From: Bacteroidota bacterium
Lineage (GTDB): Bacteria; Bacteroidota; Bacteroidia; Bacteroidales; JAAUTT01
DNA: 64,000 bases
Reading direction: 5' to 3'
Assembly: GCA_030706405.1 (NCBI GenBank)
Contig: JAUZOO010000008.1
Span: 62,001-126,000 of the forward strand
The position numbers and the translations under genes were made by a program. Under the pieces are notes generated by a model, which saw nothing but the letters and a program-made list of their open reading frames with translations, was not told where the DNA came from and made no database searches. Positions 17,118-23,060 of this stretch are shown one piece after another (position 1 is the stretch's first letter; each line of letters begins with the position of its first letter).

Positions 17118-17510
17118 ATGAAAATTCGAACTGATTTTGTGACTAATAGTAGTTCTGTAAGTTTTATAGTTACTATGAACTTAAGTATGCTTGATAGGTT
17201 CTTAGATACTTATGAAGAAAAATTTAACACAGGGGAAAAAAGAGCAATTGAGGTTCTTAAAGAAGAATTGGTAAAAAAGGGAACAAGAGTAATGTTAGAG
17301 GGTATTGAGATATATACTAAGCACTTTAAGTTTGATACTAGTGGAGATTGCATGTTTTCAGATTCATACGATAAGCCATATGAAGAAATAGACTTTTCTG
17401 CTTTTGAAGAAAAAGACATATGGGCTTTAATCTATGGTGAATTTATTGCAAAAAATAGAATAAGTAATGTTGAAGGATTTGGTGTTACTAAAGTTGACAC
17501 CTCTTTATAA
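17118..17510 (+). CDS. small protein with MKIR-DFVTNSSSVSF N-terminus, copy A
   Basis: 130 residues, soluble and acidic. The first 17 residues are MKIRTDFVTNSSSVSFI, and the C-terminus ends with a GEFI...ISN.EGFGVTKVD block. Its downstream neighbour, also 130 residues, shares both ends, while the middles differ. Small proteins beginning MKIRxDFVTNSSSSSF are, from memory, a recurrent class of unknown function. A radical SAM gene follows two genes later, so this may be a substrate, a leader-bearing precursor or a partner of that enzyme. It contains few cysteines (one), which argues against a thioether-rich peptide. It opens a tight four-gene AT-rich operon. Confidence 0.85.
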   Translation: MKIRTDFVTNSSSVSFIVTMNLSMLDRFLDTYEEKFNTGEKRAIEVLKEELVKKGTRVMLEGIEIYTKHFKFDTSGDCMFSDSYDKPYEEIDFSAFEEKDIWALIYGEFIAKNRISNVEGFGVTKVDTSL

Positions 17511-17521
17511 AATTAAAAACA

Positions 17522-17914
17522 ATGAAAATACGCAGTGACTTTGTTACCAATAGTAGTTCTGTTAGCTTCATTATTACCATGCATAAGAAAATTGTTGAAG
17601 TCTTTGAAAGGTGGTATGGAGAATCAGCAGCAATTGAGTATAAAACTATTAGAGATACATTGAAAACCTATATGTTAGATAATGGAACAAGAACTTTTCT
17701 TGAAGCAGAGGAAATATATGTCAAGAAAATACAATTCAATGATGATGATGGAGTTACGATAGATAAAGAGCTATTAAAACAAGAAAATAAAGAACTTGAT
17801 TTTAGTAATATAGAAGAAGATGAGTTATGGAACTACATTCGAGGAGAGTATATATTAAATGGAAAATTAAGTAATATTCGAGGTTTTGGAGTAACTCAGG
17901 TTGATCAATACTAA
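17522..17914 (+). CDS. small protein with MKIR-DFVTNSSSVSF N-terminus, copy B
   Basis: 130 residues, paralogous to the gene 11 bp upstream. It starts MKIRSDFVTNSSSVSFI and ends with a GEYI...LSNIRGFGVTQVD block. It has no cysteine and no signal peptide, and a central acidic stretch surrounds residues 77-100. Its stop codon TAA directly abuts the ATG of the radical SAM gene (TAAATG), which points to translational coupling. The duplication with conserved ends suggests that the N-terminal Ser-rich segment and C-terminal GFGVT block are recognition surfaces, while the middle diverges. Confidence 0.85.
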   Translation: MKIRSDFVTNSSSVSFIITMHKKIVEVFERWYGESAAIEYKTIRDTLKTYMLDNGTRTFLEAEEIYVKKIQFNDDDGVTIDKELLKQENKELDFSNIEEDELWNYIRGEYILNGKLSNIRGFGVTQVDQY

Positions 17915-18937
17915 ATGAAAATTAGAAGACACATAGGTGATTATAATTTCATTGCTGACCAAGAATCAGGAATGACGTTTCGGTGGGGCAAAACTTTCAA
18001 AGATAACCCCAATTTTGCCCCAGTACCTGAACTTGTTGATATTTCTATTTCCAATCATTGCAGCAAGGGATGTGATTATTGTTATCGAAATAGTAAGCCA
18101 GATAATTCTTTTATGTCTCTTGATGATTATAAGTTTGTTTTATCAAGTCTTAATCATCAAAAATATGGCAATGTTTTTCAAGTTGCATTAGGTGGTGGAG
18201 AACCTTTAGAACATCCGGAAATACTTGAAATATTAAATATTACTAGGCAGTTTAATATAGTTCCTAATTTTACAACGAATGGTAAAAATATTACTCAATC
18301 AATAATTGATAATATATATGGAAAAGTTGGCGCAGTTGCGGTATCATTAAATAACATGAATGATATAAGTAATTCAAAAATTAAGCTTCTAATAAATGGT
18401 GGCATTCGGACAAATATTCACTATGTAATTGATAGAAATAATATAAAACAAGCAATTCAAATATTAAAAGGAGACTTCAACGAAAACCTAAAAAGAATCA
18501 ATGCTTTAATATTTCTAACATATAAACCATCAGGGCGAGGAAACTTAGAAAATATTTTAGTAACCAATTCTGTATTAAATGATTTTATTGAATTAATTGA
18601 TAATAGTAAAGCTAGTTGTAATATTGGTTTTGATGCGTGTTTTGTGCCAATGTTAATGAGGTTCACTAAGACTAATATTGATTTTATAGATTCTTGTGAA
18701 GTTGGATTTTTTTCTGTTTATATTGATGAAAATCTCAGGGTTTCGCCTTGTTCATTTTCCAACAATACAAATAGTTATAGTCTTAATGAATTTGACTTTT
18801 ATGACATTTGGCTTAATAAGTTTGACAGTTTTAGAACGAAAGTAACCAATGCTTGCATTCAGGAGTGTAATGCCAAAAATATTTGTAAAGGGTGTTGCCA
18901 TTATTTCCCTGAAATAACAACCTGCTTTAAGAATTAA
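17915..18937 (+). CDS. radical SAM enzyme with SPASM-like C-terminal cysteines
   Basis: 340 residues. The radical SAM motif C49-x3-C53-x2-C56 (CSKGCDYC) binds the 4Fe-4S cluster that cleaves S-adenosylmethionine, and GGGEP at 93-97 contacts the methionine moiety. The C-terminal region has cysteines at 235, 242, 261, 279, 314, 318, 324, 327, 328 and 337, a pattern like the SPASM/twitch auxiliary-cluster domains of peptide-modifying enzymes. It also starts with MKIR. It abuts the second small-protein gene and is one base from the STAND gene. The likely role is post-translational modification of one of the co-encoded proteins. The chemistry cannot be predicted. Confidence 0.88.
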   Translation: MKIRRHIGDYNFIADQESGMTFRWGKTFKDNPNFAPVPELVDISISNHCSKGCDYCYRNSKPDNSFMSLDDYKFVLSSLNHQKYGNVFQVALGGGEPLEHPEILEILNITRQFNIVPNFTTNGKNITQSIIDNIYGKVGAVAVSLNNMNDISNSKIKLLINGGIRTNIHYVIDRNNIKQAIQILKGDFNENLKRINALIFLTYKPSGRGNLENILVTNSVLNDFIELIDNSKASCNIGFDACFVPMLMRFTKTNIDFIDSCEVGFFSVYIDENLRVSPCSFSNNTNSYSLNEFDFYDIWLNKFDSFRTKVTNACIQECNAKNICKGCCHYFPEITTCFKN

Positions 18938-18938
18938 T

Positions 18939-21900
18939 ATGAAGGAAATATCGTGGCATCAGCTAGAAAATAATAGTTCGTCTAAGGAACTAAGTTTTGA
19001 ATCATTTTGCTTTCAAATAGCAACAAAAAAATATAAGGACTACGGAACGTTTGAATCATATTATAATACTCCCGGTTCTGAATTCTATTTGAAATTGTCT
19101 AAAGATTGTGATGAATTAAGTGCAAAGGCTGGAGAAATAATCGGCTGGCAAGCTAAATTTTGGTTAAACAAAACAGATGAAAATAATTCGCCCTTAGATT
19201 TAAAGCATAGAGAAGAATTAATTCAAGGACTAAAAAAGACTTTGGAATACAAAAACAATCTAACTCATTGGATTATATGCACTCCGGGGAAATTTTCTAA
19301 TACAAACACAAAAGCTGGGAAACCTTGGGATACATTAGTAAAAGAAGGAAATAAATTAAAAAAAGGCATTAATCTTTCACATTGGCACAAAGACATCTTC
19401 GAAGCAATTTTTCATTCTAACCCTGAAGAATTTAGCTCAATTTTCAATTTATATTTTAATACTAAACTTATTAACAAGGAATTTATAAACAATTTGACCA
19501 GAACTAACCTAAAACAGTTAGAAAGAAAATTTGATGTGGATTTGCATATCAAAGAAGAAGAAGAATTAAACCTTCTTAATTCTATTTATCCAGATAAAGC
19601 CAGAGCTGATGTTAATATTTATATTAAACTTCTGGATGATGTTATCGATGATATTAATCGGGATTATAGGATAAAAATTGATCAATTCAGTGACTTATCC
19701 AAAGAATTTGTCAATTTGACGAGAAAATACTATTCGAAACATTTAGATATATTAAAAAACGTTAATGATATTTATACCAAATCTGTAGATATCTACGATT
19801 TTGCTAAACAAAGCAAAACAGCAATCGACAATTTTATACAAAATAGCGAATCTGATAGAAATCAGCTAAACAAACAATTAAAAGACATCTTCCCAAAATC
19901 AGATAAGAACAACACTAATATAAACTATCATGACCGTGATTGGGTAGAGTTTATGATTAAAAACGTTAATAATATTTCTGATTTATTAACTGGTAAAAAC
20001 AAGGACAATTCACTGCTGCAAATCATTTTAAGAATACTCTCTAATGATGTTCATGTATTTGGAGCAGCAGGGTATGGCAAAACACATTTTGCTTGTTCAA
20101 TCAGTTACAATCTTCTAAAACATGAGTATCCTGCCTTACTACTATTAGGAAGCTCATTCCGTAACTCCATTACACCGAAACAAAGAATAATTCAAATACT
20201 TGAATTGGAAGACTCATATTCATTTAGAGATTTCCTTGGAGCTGTAGATATATTGGGAGATACATATAAATGTAAAGTTCCTATAATTATTGATGGCCTA
20301 AATGAAAGCTACCCTTCAGCGGGTGAAATCTGGTATAATGAGTTAAATTCAATTATTAATGACATAAGACAATATTCTAATATCATTTTAATTACAACTT
20401 GTAGAGAAAAGAGAGAGTATATTCAGCAAATATTTGATAAAGAATCATATAAAGATGTTGAAAACTATGTCTATTTAAAGGGGTTCACGGATAAAAACAT
20501 TAATAGTGCTATCGAAAAGTACTTTAAAAAATATGCAATCAACGCAAGTTCAAAGCCTTATGATATTACCCTATTTGAAAATCCTCTAAGGTTAAAAATA
20601 TTTTGTGATGTTAATAGAGACAAGATTAACTTGGATATAAATCTTCATTCTATTGTTGAAAGCATAGAAAGCTATATTCTAAATTTGATAAAAAAAATAT
20701 CAATAAAAGAACGTGCTATAAATGCAATACGAAAATCAAAATTAGAAAAGGGACTACAGGAAATTGGTCAAATACTTTGGAATAATAATAAAAGGGAAAT
20801 TCAATTTTCCGAATTTTATCCTCTTTTTGAAGAAGAAATATCATTTAATCTAATTGATGAAGGACTTTGTTTTCAGCGTGATTTAAATAATGAGAATGAA
20901 TTGATTCAATTTACCTATGATTTAGTTGGTGGGTATCAAATTGCAAAATCAGTTTTTTTTCAAAGTAATTCTATTCCCATAATACTTGAAAAATTGCAAT
21001 CAGCAGAGACAAAGGAAAAACTTTTCTGTGATGATAAAACAAAGCGACATCCTTTACATGAAGATATTTTAAAATCAATCTCTTATCTTCTTCCATTAAA
21101 GACTGACAAGCAGATTTATGAGGTGATTACTGATGAGGCAATTATTTTAGAAAGTATAGGAAATCTTGAATTGCTAACTTCCACTCAAGGTAATAAAGAT
21201 AAGTATGTTAAATTTATTGAGAGCTTAAATTTAAGTTCTGCATTGATTAATAGTTTAGTTCAGAAATTATATGATGATGTTTTACAAAAAAATACTTTTA
21301 GTTCGTTCGACATTATAATATCAATTTTTTTAAAACTTAATCAGTACGAGATTGATATAGTTTGGAATGAGCTTATACGAAAGGATTCTTATAAACTTCA
21401 ATCAAAATTAAAATGGATATCAAAGTACATTAAAAATACAGAGCACTCCAAAGATAATGCTTTACTTTTTGTTTTATTGTTAACAGGTAGTTCTGATAAA
21501 TTATTACGAAATGAGGCTACAAAAACATTAATGCAATTGGGTCTAGTATATCCAGATACCCTCATTAAGCATGCTAAACGTTTTATGCTTGTAAATGATA
21601 GCTTTATTCTTGAATCTCTCATTTGTGCGTTAACAGGAGTTGTCCTTAGGTTTAAAAATAAAAAATTCACTAGTACCGCAGTTCATTTCCTTCAAGAGGA
21701 TTTTCTCACTAAAAATACTACAAATCATATTGCAATATTAGACTTTGCTCAAACAATATTTGAATTTGGTTTGTCATATTATGGAATTGAGTATGATAAA
21801 AACATTATTTTTAGGAATAAGGACGAAGTATGGGTTCTAAATAATAAACTAATAAAAAAACACCAAGGAGATGACTTCATTTGGTCTTATGAGATGATGG

Positions 21901-23060
21901 ATTATGATTTCATCAAATTTCAAATTACATCTCTTTCAAGCCATTCATATGACAGCTTCAGTAAATATTCTAGAGCTGAAATTATTAGTTTTATACATGA
22001 AAGAATTAAACAGAAAGGTTATTCCAAGAAATTGTATTCCCAAATAGAATCAAAAATTTCAGAAGACAATAAATATCGTAGAGAAGAAGTTTCTGAGCAA
22101 GTAACAAAATATGATAACAAATATCTTTATTCTACCTATTTAGAATTGGCAGGTTTTCTCATGTTGAATAATCAAATCAAGCCTGAATACAGAGATACCC
22201 TTCGCTTCTCCTATATTTTCTATGATCCCACATTTCCTGAAATTACTAATAGAACCCAAGTTATAAATGACTGCCTTTTACCCGCATTTAATGAAGATAT
22301 TCAGAATTGGATTCTCAATGATGCTTCTAATTTAATAAAAGAACTATATATTACGATTCCTTTTTTTGAGAACTCAGAGATGGTACTTCTCTATGCTTCT
22401 TTAAGTCAAAAAAATGAAGATAACAATACATATATTACGATTCTTTCAAATACTTATGTATTTGAATCAAGGTTTAAGAAGGATATTTCAGAAACATTTC
22501 AATCTAGTTATATTCACGAATCTAATGAATTAAGTCAAATTTTTGGAGGTGAAATTCCTTGGAGAAACCATATCGAAATTAACGAAGAAATTGATAATTC
22601 AGATAACGCAGATGACTTTGGATATTCTGAAGACGATGAAGTTGACATTGAATCTAATGTTAGCGAATACAGCAATTTTGATTCATCACGATGTTTTCCT
22701 CTTGTGAATTATTATTCTTGGTCTTCATGGACTAGGAACAGATATCAAAATCCAAGCTTCGTATTTTTGGATTCAGTTGTTGCGAATAAAATGGAATTAG
22801 ATTTTAATATTGAAGGATTATCACATATTGACAAAAATGGGAAACTTATTACAAAGTATTATAAAACGGATAATTCAGAATTTCTTTTTATTGATCGACA
22901 AATTCTAGAAAAATATCTTGGAGATAATAATCTTGATTTAATATGGAATAAGTTTATTACCAAATATGGAGAATTTGGTGTTCACAAAGACCATAAATTA
23001 GATCCAACTTTTAAAGACACTAAGTCAATTGATTTTTATTCAGATTACAACCCTCGCTAA
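18939..23060 (+). CDS. nuclease-STAND NTPase, Avs-like defence effector candidate
   Basis: 1373 residues. Residues 15-120 look like a PD-(D/E)xK nuclease, with ESF at 21-23 and EIIGWQAK at 66-73. A helical linker follows. The STAND/NACHT NTPase has Walker A GAAGYGKT (375-382), Walker B IIIDGLNE (449-456) and a TTCRE sensor arginine at 489. The remaining ~850 residues are helical and repeat-like, with an acidic patch late in the protein and a C-terminal block (FLFIDRQILEKYL...LIW) that I recall from other large nuclease-NTPases. Such proteins usually detect phage components and then cut DNA. The gene is AT-rich, and its stop codon borders a dispersed repeat. Confidence 0.82.
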   Translation: MKEISWHQLENNSSSKELSFESFCFQIATKKYKDYGTFESYYNTPGSEFYLKLSKDCDELSAKAGEIIGWQAKFWLNKTDENNSPLDLKHREELIQGLKKTLEYKNNLTHWIICTPGKFSNTNTKAGKPWDTLVKEGNKLKKGINLSHWHKDIFEAIFHSNPEEFSSIFNLYFNTKLINKEFINNLTRTNLKQLERKFDVDLHIKEEEELNLLNSIYPDKARADVNIYIKLLDDVIDDINRDYRIKIDQFSDLSKEFVNLTRKYYSKHLDILKNVNDIYTKSVDIYDFAKQSKTAIDNFIQNSESDRNQLNKQLKDIFPKSDKNNTNINYHDRDWVEFMIKNVNNISDLLTGKNKDNSLLQIILRILSNDVHVFGAAGYGKTHFACSISYNLLKHEYPALLLLGSSFRNSITPKQRIIQILELEDSYSFRDFLGAVDILGDTYKCKVPIIIDGLNESYPSAGEIWYNELNSIINDIRQYSNIILITTCREKREYIQQIFDKESYKDVENYVYLKGFTDKNINSAIEKYFKKYAINASSKPYDITLFENPLRLKIFCDVNRDKINLDINLHSIVESIESYILNLIKKISIKERAINAIRKSKLEKGLQEIGQILWNNNKREIQFSEFYPLFEEEISFNLIDEGLCFQRDLNNENELIQFTYDLVGGYQIAKSVFFQSNSIPIILEKLQSAETKEKLFCDDKTKRHPLHEDILKSISYLLPLKTDKQIYEVITDEAIILESIGNLELLTSTQGNKDKYVKFIESLNLSSALINSLVQKLYDDVLQKNTFSSFDIIISIFLKLNQYEIDIVWNELIRKDSYKLQSKLKWISKYIKNTEHSKDNALLFVLLLTGSSDKLLRNEATKTLMQLGLVYPDTLIKHAKRFMLVNDSFILESLICALTGVVLRFKNKKFTSTAVHFLQEDFLTKNTTNHIAILDFAQTIFEFGLSYYGIEYDKNIIFRNKDEVWVLNNKLIKKHQGDDFIWSYEMMDYDFIKFQITSLSSHSYDSFSKYSRAEIISFIHERIKQKGYSKKLYSQIESKISEDNKYRREEVSEQVTKYDNKYLYSTYLELAGFLMLNNQIKPEYRDTLRFSYIFYDPTFPEITNRTQVINDCLLPAFNEDIQNWILNDASNLIKELYITIPFFENSEMVLLYASLSQKNEDNNTYITILSNTYVFESRFKKDISETFQSSYIHESNELSQIFGGEIPWRNHIEINEEIDNSDNADDFGYSEDDEVDIESNVSEYSNFDSSRCFPLVNYYSWSSWTRNRYQNPSFVFLDSVVANKMELDFNIEGLSHIDKNGKLITKYYKTDNSEFLFIDRQILEKYLGDNNLDLIWNKFITKYGEFGVHKDHKLDPTFKDTKSIDFYSDYNPR

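Follow-up and report, generated by a model that had tools for sequence, protein, structure and literature searches.

Two small proteins encoded side by side in a Bacteroidota genome, within the 64,000-nucleotide stretch analysed here (the window), begin with the same short N-terminal tag, which recurs on otherwise unrelated proteins of bacteria, archaea and phages in the company of one family of radical SAM enzymes. We consider it reasonably probable (roughly 0.6) that the adjoining radical SAM enzyme recognises, and probably modifies, this tag, and that it does so here within a STAND anti-phage module.

The operon and its two small paralogues

The operon comprises four genes, all on the forward strand, in the order tagged protein 1, tagged protein 2, radical SAM enzyme and Avs2-like STAND ATPase. 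Its features are as follows.

17118..17510, forward strand: tagged protein 1, 130 aa, MKIRTDFVTNSSSVSFIV...GFGVTKVDTSL; ORF with ATG start, paralogue of the next gene, supported by the family alignment
17118..17168, forward strand: N-terminal tag of protein 1, residues 1-17; recurs on at least 84 unrelated clusters, strictly N-terminal
17522..17914, forward strand: tagged protein 2, 130 aa, MKIRSDFVTNSSSVSFII...GFGVTQVDQY; ORF with ATG start, AlphaFold2 model
17522..17572, forward strand: N-terminal tag of protein 2, residues 1-17; supported by cluster recurrence, family alignment and model
17915..18937, forward strand: radical SAM enzyme, 340 aa; CxxxCxxC and auxiliary-cluster cysteines; PF04055, phrog_7293
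18939..23060, forward strand: Avs2-like STAND (NACHT) ATPase, 1373 aa; last gene of the operon; Avs2 models

The radical SAM gene begins immediately past the stop of the second tagged gene, and the STAND gene follows one base after it. Promoter and terminator consensus scans gave nothing above shuffled sequence. Since the small tagged proteins are absent from four genomes of the same genus, the operon is probably an accessory island.

A preliminary description of this DNA had seen in the first two genes a pair of 130-residue paralogues with conserved termini and a divergent middle, and this reading holds: both open reading frames are present, and their products are true paralogues (44% identical over 128 aa by BLASTP, E=3e-32), identical in 18 of the first 20 columns, 22 of 79 in the middle and 14 of 31 at the end. 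When 18 family members are aligned, the majority residue accounts on average for a fraction of 0.93 at residues 1-18, 0.41-0.47 at residues 19-95 and 0.57-0.58 at residues 96-130, so that both ends are conserved, the N-terminal block far above the C-terminal one. Uniform conservation, which the same description had named as evidence against itself, is found neither in this alignment nor across the unrelated clusters described below. Cysteine is nearly absent, as had been noted (one residue in protein 1, none in protein 2), and we likewise regard a sactipeptide-like product as unlikely. Several tagged proteins of window-family relatives, located near transporter genes, carry Cys-rich C-terminal extensions.

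In the AlphaFold2 model of tagged protein 2 (mean pLDDT 85), residues 1-11 score below 50 and a confident alpha/beta body, mostly above 90, starts at about residue 14; the model thus predicts a folded body with the tag as its disordered tail. The GFGVTQV end forms strand 122-127 of the same model. The C-terminal block had been put forward as a docking or modified tail, which its restriction to the window family and its position in a core beta strand of a confident model rule out as a general function. Nor is the MKIR start of the enzyme a copy of the tag: judged by the enzyme model and the relatives, these residues are part of the N-terminal sheet of the enzyme itself, in a stretch reading 'RRH...YNF'. 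No clear relative of the small-protein fold was found (Foldseek at best E 0.19; ACT/ferredoxin-like chains at Z 3.5 in VIA; at best E 0.0066 in the viral library), and no function can therefore be read from it. Pfam, NCBIfam, PHROG and PADLOC contain no family that covers the small proteins; their sole match is weak, confined to the tag and directed to phrog_7397 (E=0.0033).

One N-terminal tag on many unrelated proteins

In the window proteins the tag reads MKIRxDFV[T/S]NSSSxS[F/Y][I/V] and spans 17 residues. Viral contigs and 84,980 species genomes were searched with a nucleotide pattern that encodes MK-x-[KR]-x-DFV[ST]NSSS only, the enzyme playing no part in the selection, and both sets of matches are samples that yield minimum counts. 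The matches, together with loci fetched earlier, formed a set of 320 proteins that was clustered by BLAST after removal of the first 20 residues. At least 320 distinct proteins, 61 to 668 aa long, match the pattern, and their bodies fall into at least 84 unrelated clusters, with 49 singletons among those listed. Likeness between tagged proteins of different clusters is limited to residues 1-18; the information per column exceeds 2 bits through residue 17, position 5 excepted, and drops below 0.6 from residue 19 on. The pattern itself forced D6, F7, V8, N10 and S11-13, whose invariance in the scanned sample is no evidence; it left positions 3, 9 and 14-18 wholly or partly open, and their conservation consequently counts as independent evidence. 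Among 21 copies outside the pattern, D6 is replaced by G, C or S, F7 by Y and V8 by I; N10 and S12 are kept in all 21.

The core of the tag stands at residue 6 from the start, barring GTG or TTG starts or a nearer Met within the tag, and none of the tagged proteins examined carries it internally or at the C-terminus. Of the two blocks that were expected to prove conserved among homologues, the N-terminal one does so in at least 84 unrelated clusters, and the GFGVT end within the window family only. Pfam and NCBIfam searches on 133 tagged proteins returned nothing beyond scattered LRR, BRCT and RING-like matches; two proteins have matches to BspA-type leucine-rich repeats and two have matches to BRCT, so the tag also occurs on well-known folds. 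No tagged protein was found in the PDB. With the window small protein as query, neither tblastn against phages nor a single-protein viral scan gave a match. Five large tagged proteins of 470-494 aa occur in Clostridia and relatives.

Tags that share a locus vary together. For 138 same-locus pairs of unrelated tagged proteins, none of 500 shuffles reached the similarity seen at residues 4, 5, 9, 14 and 16, and residues 19-25 showed no such excess; position 4 is shared by 99% of the pairs versus 61% after shuffling, a K/R sharing that may be due in part to base composition. The codon identity of the tags in such pairs is 0.47 versus 0.40 expected from codon usage. The tag codons have diverged nearly to the limit set by codon usage, so that selection acts at the peptide level and recent DNA copying is ruled out as the cause of tag identity. 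Judged from these sequences, the tail is under selection as a peptide read by a common partner.

Co-occurrence of the tag with one enzyme family

The enzyme was detected with an HMM built from the window enzyme and its relatives. Around tag-selected cellular loci it lies within the fetched stretch in 98 of the 116 listed (89 strong, 9 partial or at locus edges), at a median gap of 15 bases from the tagged gene in the strong cases and on the same strand in 118 of 121. A further 13 of the 116 genomes encode it elsewhere, and it was not detected in five. Viral tag-selected stretches contain it in 61 of 120 listed, and a search of whole records for the remaining viral contigs located it in 25 of 46, leaving 21 of 46; most of the enzyme-less cases, cellular and viral, are fragments or MAGs. 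Control stretches were chosen with an unrelated random 14-mer after a 16-mer scan had given zero matches: 120 viral stretches, 1.05 Mb in total, held the enzyme in 0 of 120 and no tag (Fisher 3e-23). The tag-free control DNA, together with the E=3e-32 of the paralogues, rules out chance similarity of the tags.

Tests within fixed samples of genomes agree. Among 395 Bacteroidota the tag occurs in one genome and the enzyme in one, the same genome in both cases, and among 250 genomes of one family centred on Lacrimispora the three genomes with a tag all lie within the six that bear the enzyme; with the two centring genomes removed, the association persists (Fisher p = 5e-5). In the reverse direction, of eight closely related enzymes on plasmids and viral contigs seven adjoin a tagged gene, and Rhizobiaceae and Rhodobacter plasmids located via the enzyme contain tagged proteins. 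The T4-like phages RB16 and KP27, also located via the enzyme, have an enzyme gene without a tagged neighbour and tagged proteins about 20 kb away; each phage has two FVSNSSS sites, the identity of the tagged proteins being drawn from three of the four. Phage records with the enzyme number 171 and those with the RB16 tagged protein 174, with a nearly equal breakdown by host. Homologues that lack a radical SAM gene, an observation that the preliminary description had named as contrary to its idea of a recognition leader, are accordingly rare.

One Candidatus Kaiserbacteria contig (L218) has seven tagged genes in a row behind a single enzyme gene, and it may be a phage contig, as its enzyme groups with viral ones. 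Two viral contigs (L071, G424; L096, G432) show in-frame TAG or TGA codons inside the enzyme gene, which suggests phages with a reassigned stop codon.

The radical SAM enzyme

The window enzyme belongs to the radical SAM superfamily (PF04055, E=8.4e-12, 46 bits vs a cut-off of 29.5) and has the cluster motif C49, C53, C56, of which C49 and C56 are invariant in 54 relatives. Further invariant residues are C242, C261, C279 and C-terminal cysteines (sets of 54 and 68 relatives), and these auxiliary-cluster cysteines, together with a fold closest to SuiB and SkfB, assign it to the SPASM/twitch peptide-modifying enzymes. In a VIA search with its model (pLDDT 93), the nearest solved folds were SuiB (Z 25.0), SkfB (23.8), ChlB (20.6) and anSME (20.2), and the sactisynthase 5why/5wgg is also near; about 35 residues, forming three strands, precede the radical SAM core. 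The enzyme matches phrog_7293 (E=2.4e-31), and the best 25 named NCBIfam radical SAM families all score far under their cut-offs, NirJ2 leading with 61.9 vs 500. Phage-clade enzymes often have a shortened C-terminus and fewer cysteines. The window sequence belongs to a clade of 12 in the enzyme tree; the members come from Bacteroidota, Bacillota, Acidobacteriota and Verrucomicrobiota, a distribution suggestive of horizontal transfer.

The fold also bears on a reading in which the tag is a docking or localisation signal only, for instance in assembly or packaging, while the enzyme acts elsewhere, such as on a nucleotide in the manner of viperin. A short conserved N-terminus on divergent bodies resembles the capsid-targeting sequence of the internal proteins of T4; many copies of the tag do lie in phages, and the enzyme resembles viperin in fold (Z near 19.8) and in a PADLOC match (7.5e-15). 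However, it scores higher against the peptide-modifying folds and reaches 46.3 bits against the NCBIfam viperin cut-off of 180, the tags co-vary within a locus, and tag and enzyme accompany each other not only in phages but also on chromosomes, on plasmids and in archaea, where there is little reason to expect a capsid signal. We therefore regard this reading as unlikely.

The STAND partner and the genomic context

The last gene of the operon encodes a protein that Avs2 models cover over residues 2-945 (PADLOC Avs2, E=6.3e-77; NF041813, E=3.3e-55). The NF041813 score of 187.6 bits lies far below the cut-off of 1000, and we assign the protein not to Avs2 itself but to the wider STAND/NACHT class, on the strength of the PADLOC profile and a NACHT match (E=3.6e-5) whose 24.1 bits are slightly below the curated 26.7. 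Its N-terminal region, judged by eye, has a nuclease-like appearance. Two other loci repeat the order of tagged gene, radical SAM gene and NACHT gene. The order STAND-size gene, small gene, tagged gene, enzyme occurs in 31 of the 35 loci of a sister group (counted by eye), and the small gene is an untagged paralogue of the tagged one (profile-profile probability 96.5, E=8e-10, from position 12 of the tagged profile). Four of the STAND-size partners in this group differ in their N-terminal domains, which include trypsin, PNP_UDP_1 (nucleoside phosphorylase) and SMEK; such differing N-terminal domains are a usual mark of effector swapping in immune NTPases. Going by gene content, the window operon probably has an anti-phage role.

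This role would not extend to all members of the family. In six relatives of the window clade the tagged gene and the enzyme lie near genes for a FecCD permease, an ABC ATPase and a periplasmic-binding protein, with a NifH-family gene close by in one of them, so the body family is not confined to STAND operons; these members perhaps take part in metal or cofactor uptake and not in defence. Two of the six contain two body repeats each, with the tag on the first repeat only. Most tagged proteins of phages and Clostridia have no adjoining STAND gene, and defence would thus apply at best to the window branch.

A proposed mechanism

In the mechanism that we favour, the small proteins would be substrates or partners of the adjoining radical SAM enzyme, which would read the 17-residue tag (MKIRxDFVTNSSSVSFI) as a flexible tail on a folded body. 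The enzyme would most likely bind this tail and modify a residue in it, by crosslinking, oxidation or epimerisation, and F7-V-[T/S]-N10-S-S-S is the best candidate stretch. Radical SAM protein modification needs a flexible substrate segment. The bodies have no residue in common and the one modelled is folded, whereas the tail is flexible, N-terminal and selected as a peptide; the simplest reading is that the tail serves both as recognition element and as site of the chemistry. We presume that F7-x-[S/T]9-N10 is comparable to the aromatic-x-x motif known from cyclophane-forming radical SAM enzymes, and that N10-S11-S12-S13 could undergo an oxidation like that of anSME. Reading the tail alone would let one enzyme serve many unrelated bodies. 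In the window, the modified small proteins would act together with the Avs2-like STAND ATPase. They would probably be accessory subunits of an anti-phage system, serving as sensors or adaptors; a modified subunit might keep the ATPase inactive, or it might be a bait that mimics tagged proteins of phages.

The resemblance of the enzyme to SuiB, SkfB and ChlB could also be taken to indicate a classical RiPP, in which the tag would be a removable leader and the enzyme would modify a downstream core, later cleaved off as a toxin or signal peptide. Pairing a radical SAM/SPASM enzyme with a conserved leader and variable cores is indeed a well-known design. A RiPP precursor is short and its core unfolded, however, whereas the window body is folded in the model, other bodies match BRCT and LRR domains, tagged proteins reach 668 aa and no residue is common to the at least 84 body clusters. 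A dedicated leader peptidase or exporter is absent from the window operon and none recurs among the neighbours scanned, the FecCD ABC transporter standing beside one sub-branch only. The earlier idea of a recognition leader thus survives in part: the N-terminus has the properties of an element that the enzyme recognises, and a leader of the RiPP type is doubtful, a reading to which we give little weight. That the tagged proteins are PqqD-like chaperones or cofactors bringing another substrate to the enzyme is quite improbable, for although the genes are adjacent and cellular loci often have a single tagged gene to each enzyme, three to seven tagged proteins of different families accompany one enzyme in phages and at some cellular loci (seven in L218), the bodies share no fold and no third peptide recurs across all loci.

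Extended beyond the window, the favoured mechanism becomes a general protein-modification system, in which one enzyme family would covalently alter an N-terminal tail on at least 80 unrelated phage, bacterial and archaeal proteins. Phages would apply the system to arrays of their own proteins, and bacteria would have incorporated it into STAND immune operons, where the state of the tail perhaps reports infection. We advance this wider proposal tentatively, at slightly less than even odds.

Relation to known systems and significance

One enzyme that reads a conserved leader on variable cores is already known from RiPPs, and anSME, a SPASM-type enzyme, converts Ser or Cys to formylglycine in a protein substrate. 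With the maturases SuiB, SkfB and ChlB the window enzyme shares its fold and, as we infer, the recognition of an N-terminal peptide element; it differs in its substrates, which would be unrelated proteins, at least some of them folded, and in having only about 35 residues ahead of its radical SAM core. Likewise, it resembles anSME in its SPASM-type fold and putative modification of a protein residue, but the motif that anSME recognises is internal and belongs to a single enzyme family, unlike the N-terminal Ser-rich tail on many families seen here. The operon resembles AVAST type 2 in its ATPase, despite the score far under the NCBIfam cut-off, and adds to it two tagged proteins and a radical SAM enzyme.

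The nearest published idea that we found is the FxSxx-COOH/FxsB branch of the VMAP conflict systems, with its C-terminal motif, release by a metallopeptidase and vWA/MoxR genes (Kaur et al., 2020; PMC7159879). In both cases a predicted conflict system unites a small, fast-diverging protein that bears a short conserved terminal motif, a radical SAM/SPASM enzyme and a partner of the AP-ATPase (STAND) type. The system described here differs in its N-terminal tag, whose core at residue 6 sets it apart from FxSxx-COOH proteins, in having no recurring peptidase and in its spread over phages, archaea and many body families. What distinguishes the present case from RiPPs and FxSxx is a tail at the N-terminus of unrelated proteins, some of them demonstrably folded, in phages as well as in cells. 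The string NSSSSSF is absent from the open-access literature, and no description of the pairing of tag and enzyme was found in this literature or in the family libraries. PHROG 7293 (radical SAM) and PHROG 7397 (tag-bearing), which match window proteins, are both function-unknown entries without a mutual link. Eight radical SAM genes have been reported within the structural gene cluster of the Aeromonas giant phage 332-Vera (PMC12390700).

The tag is easily missed, as each tagged protein is annotated as a separate 'hypothetical protein'. If it is the site of modification, it would constitute a transferable 17-residue handle for a compact radical SAM enzyme, used across phages, archaea and bacteria. 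This would provide a common biochemistry for many phage orphan genes at once, two of them in the E. coli phage RB16, and it would tie protein radical chemistry to STAND immunity.
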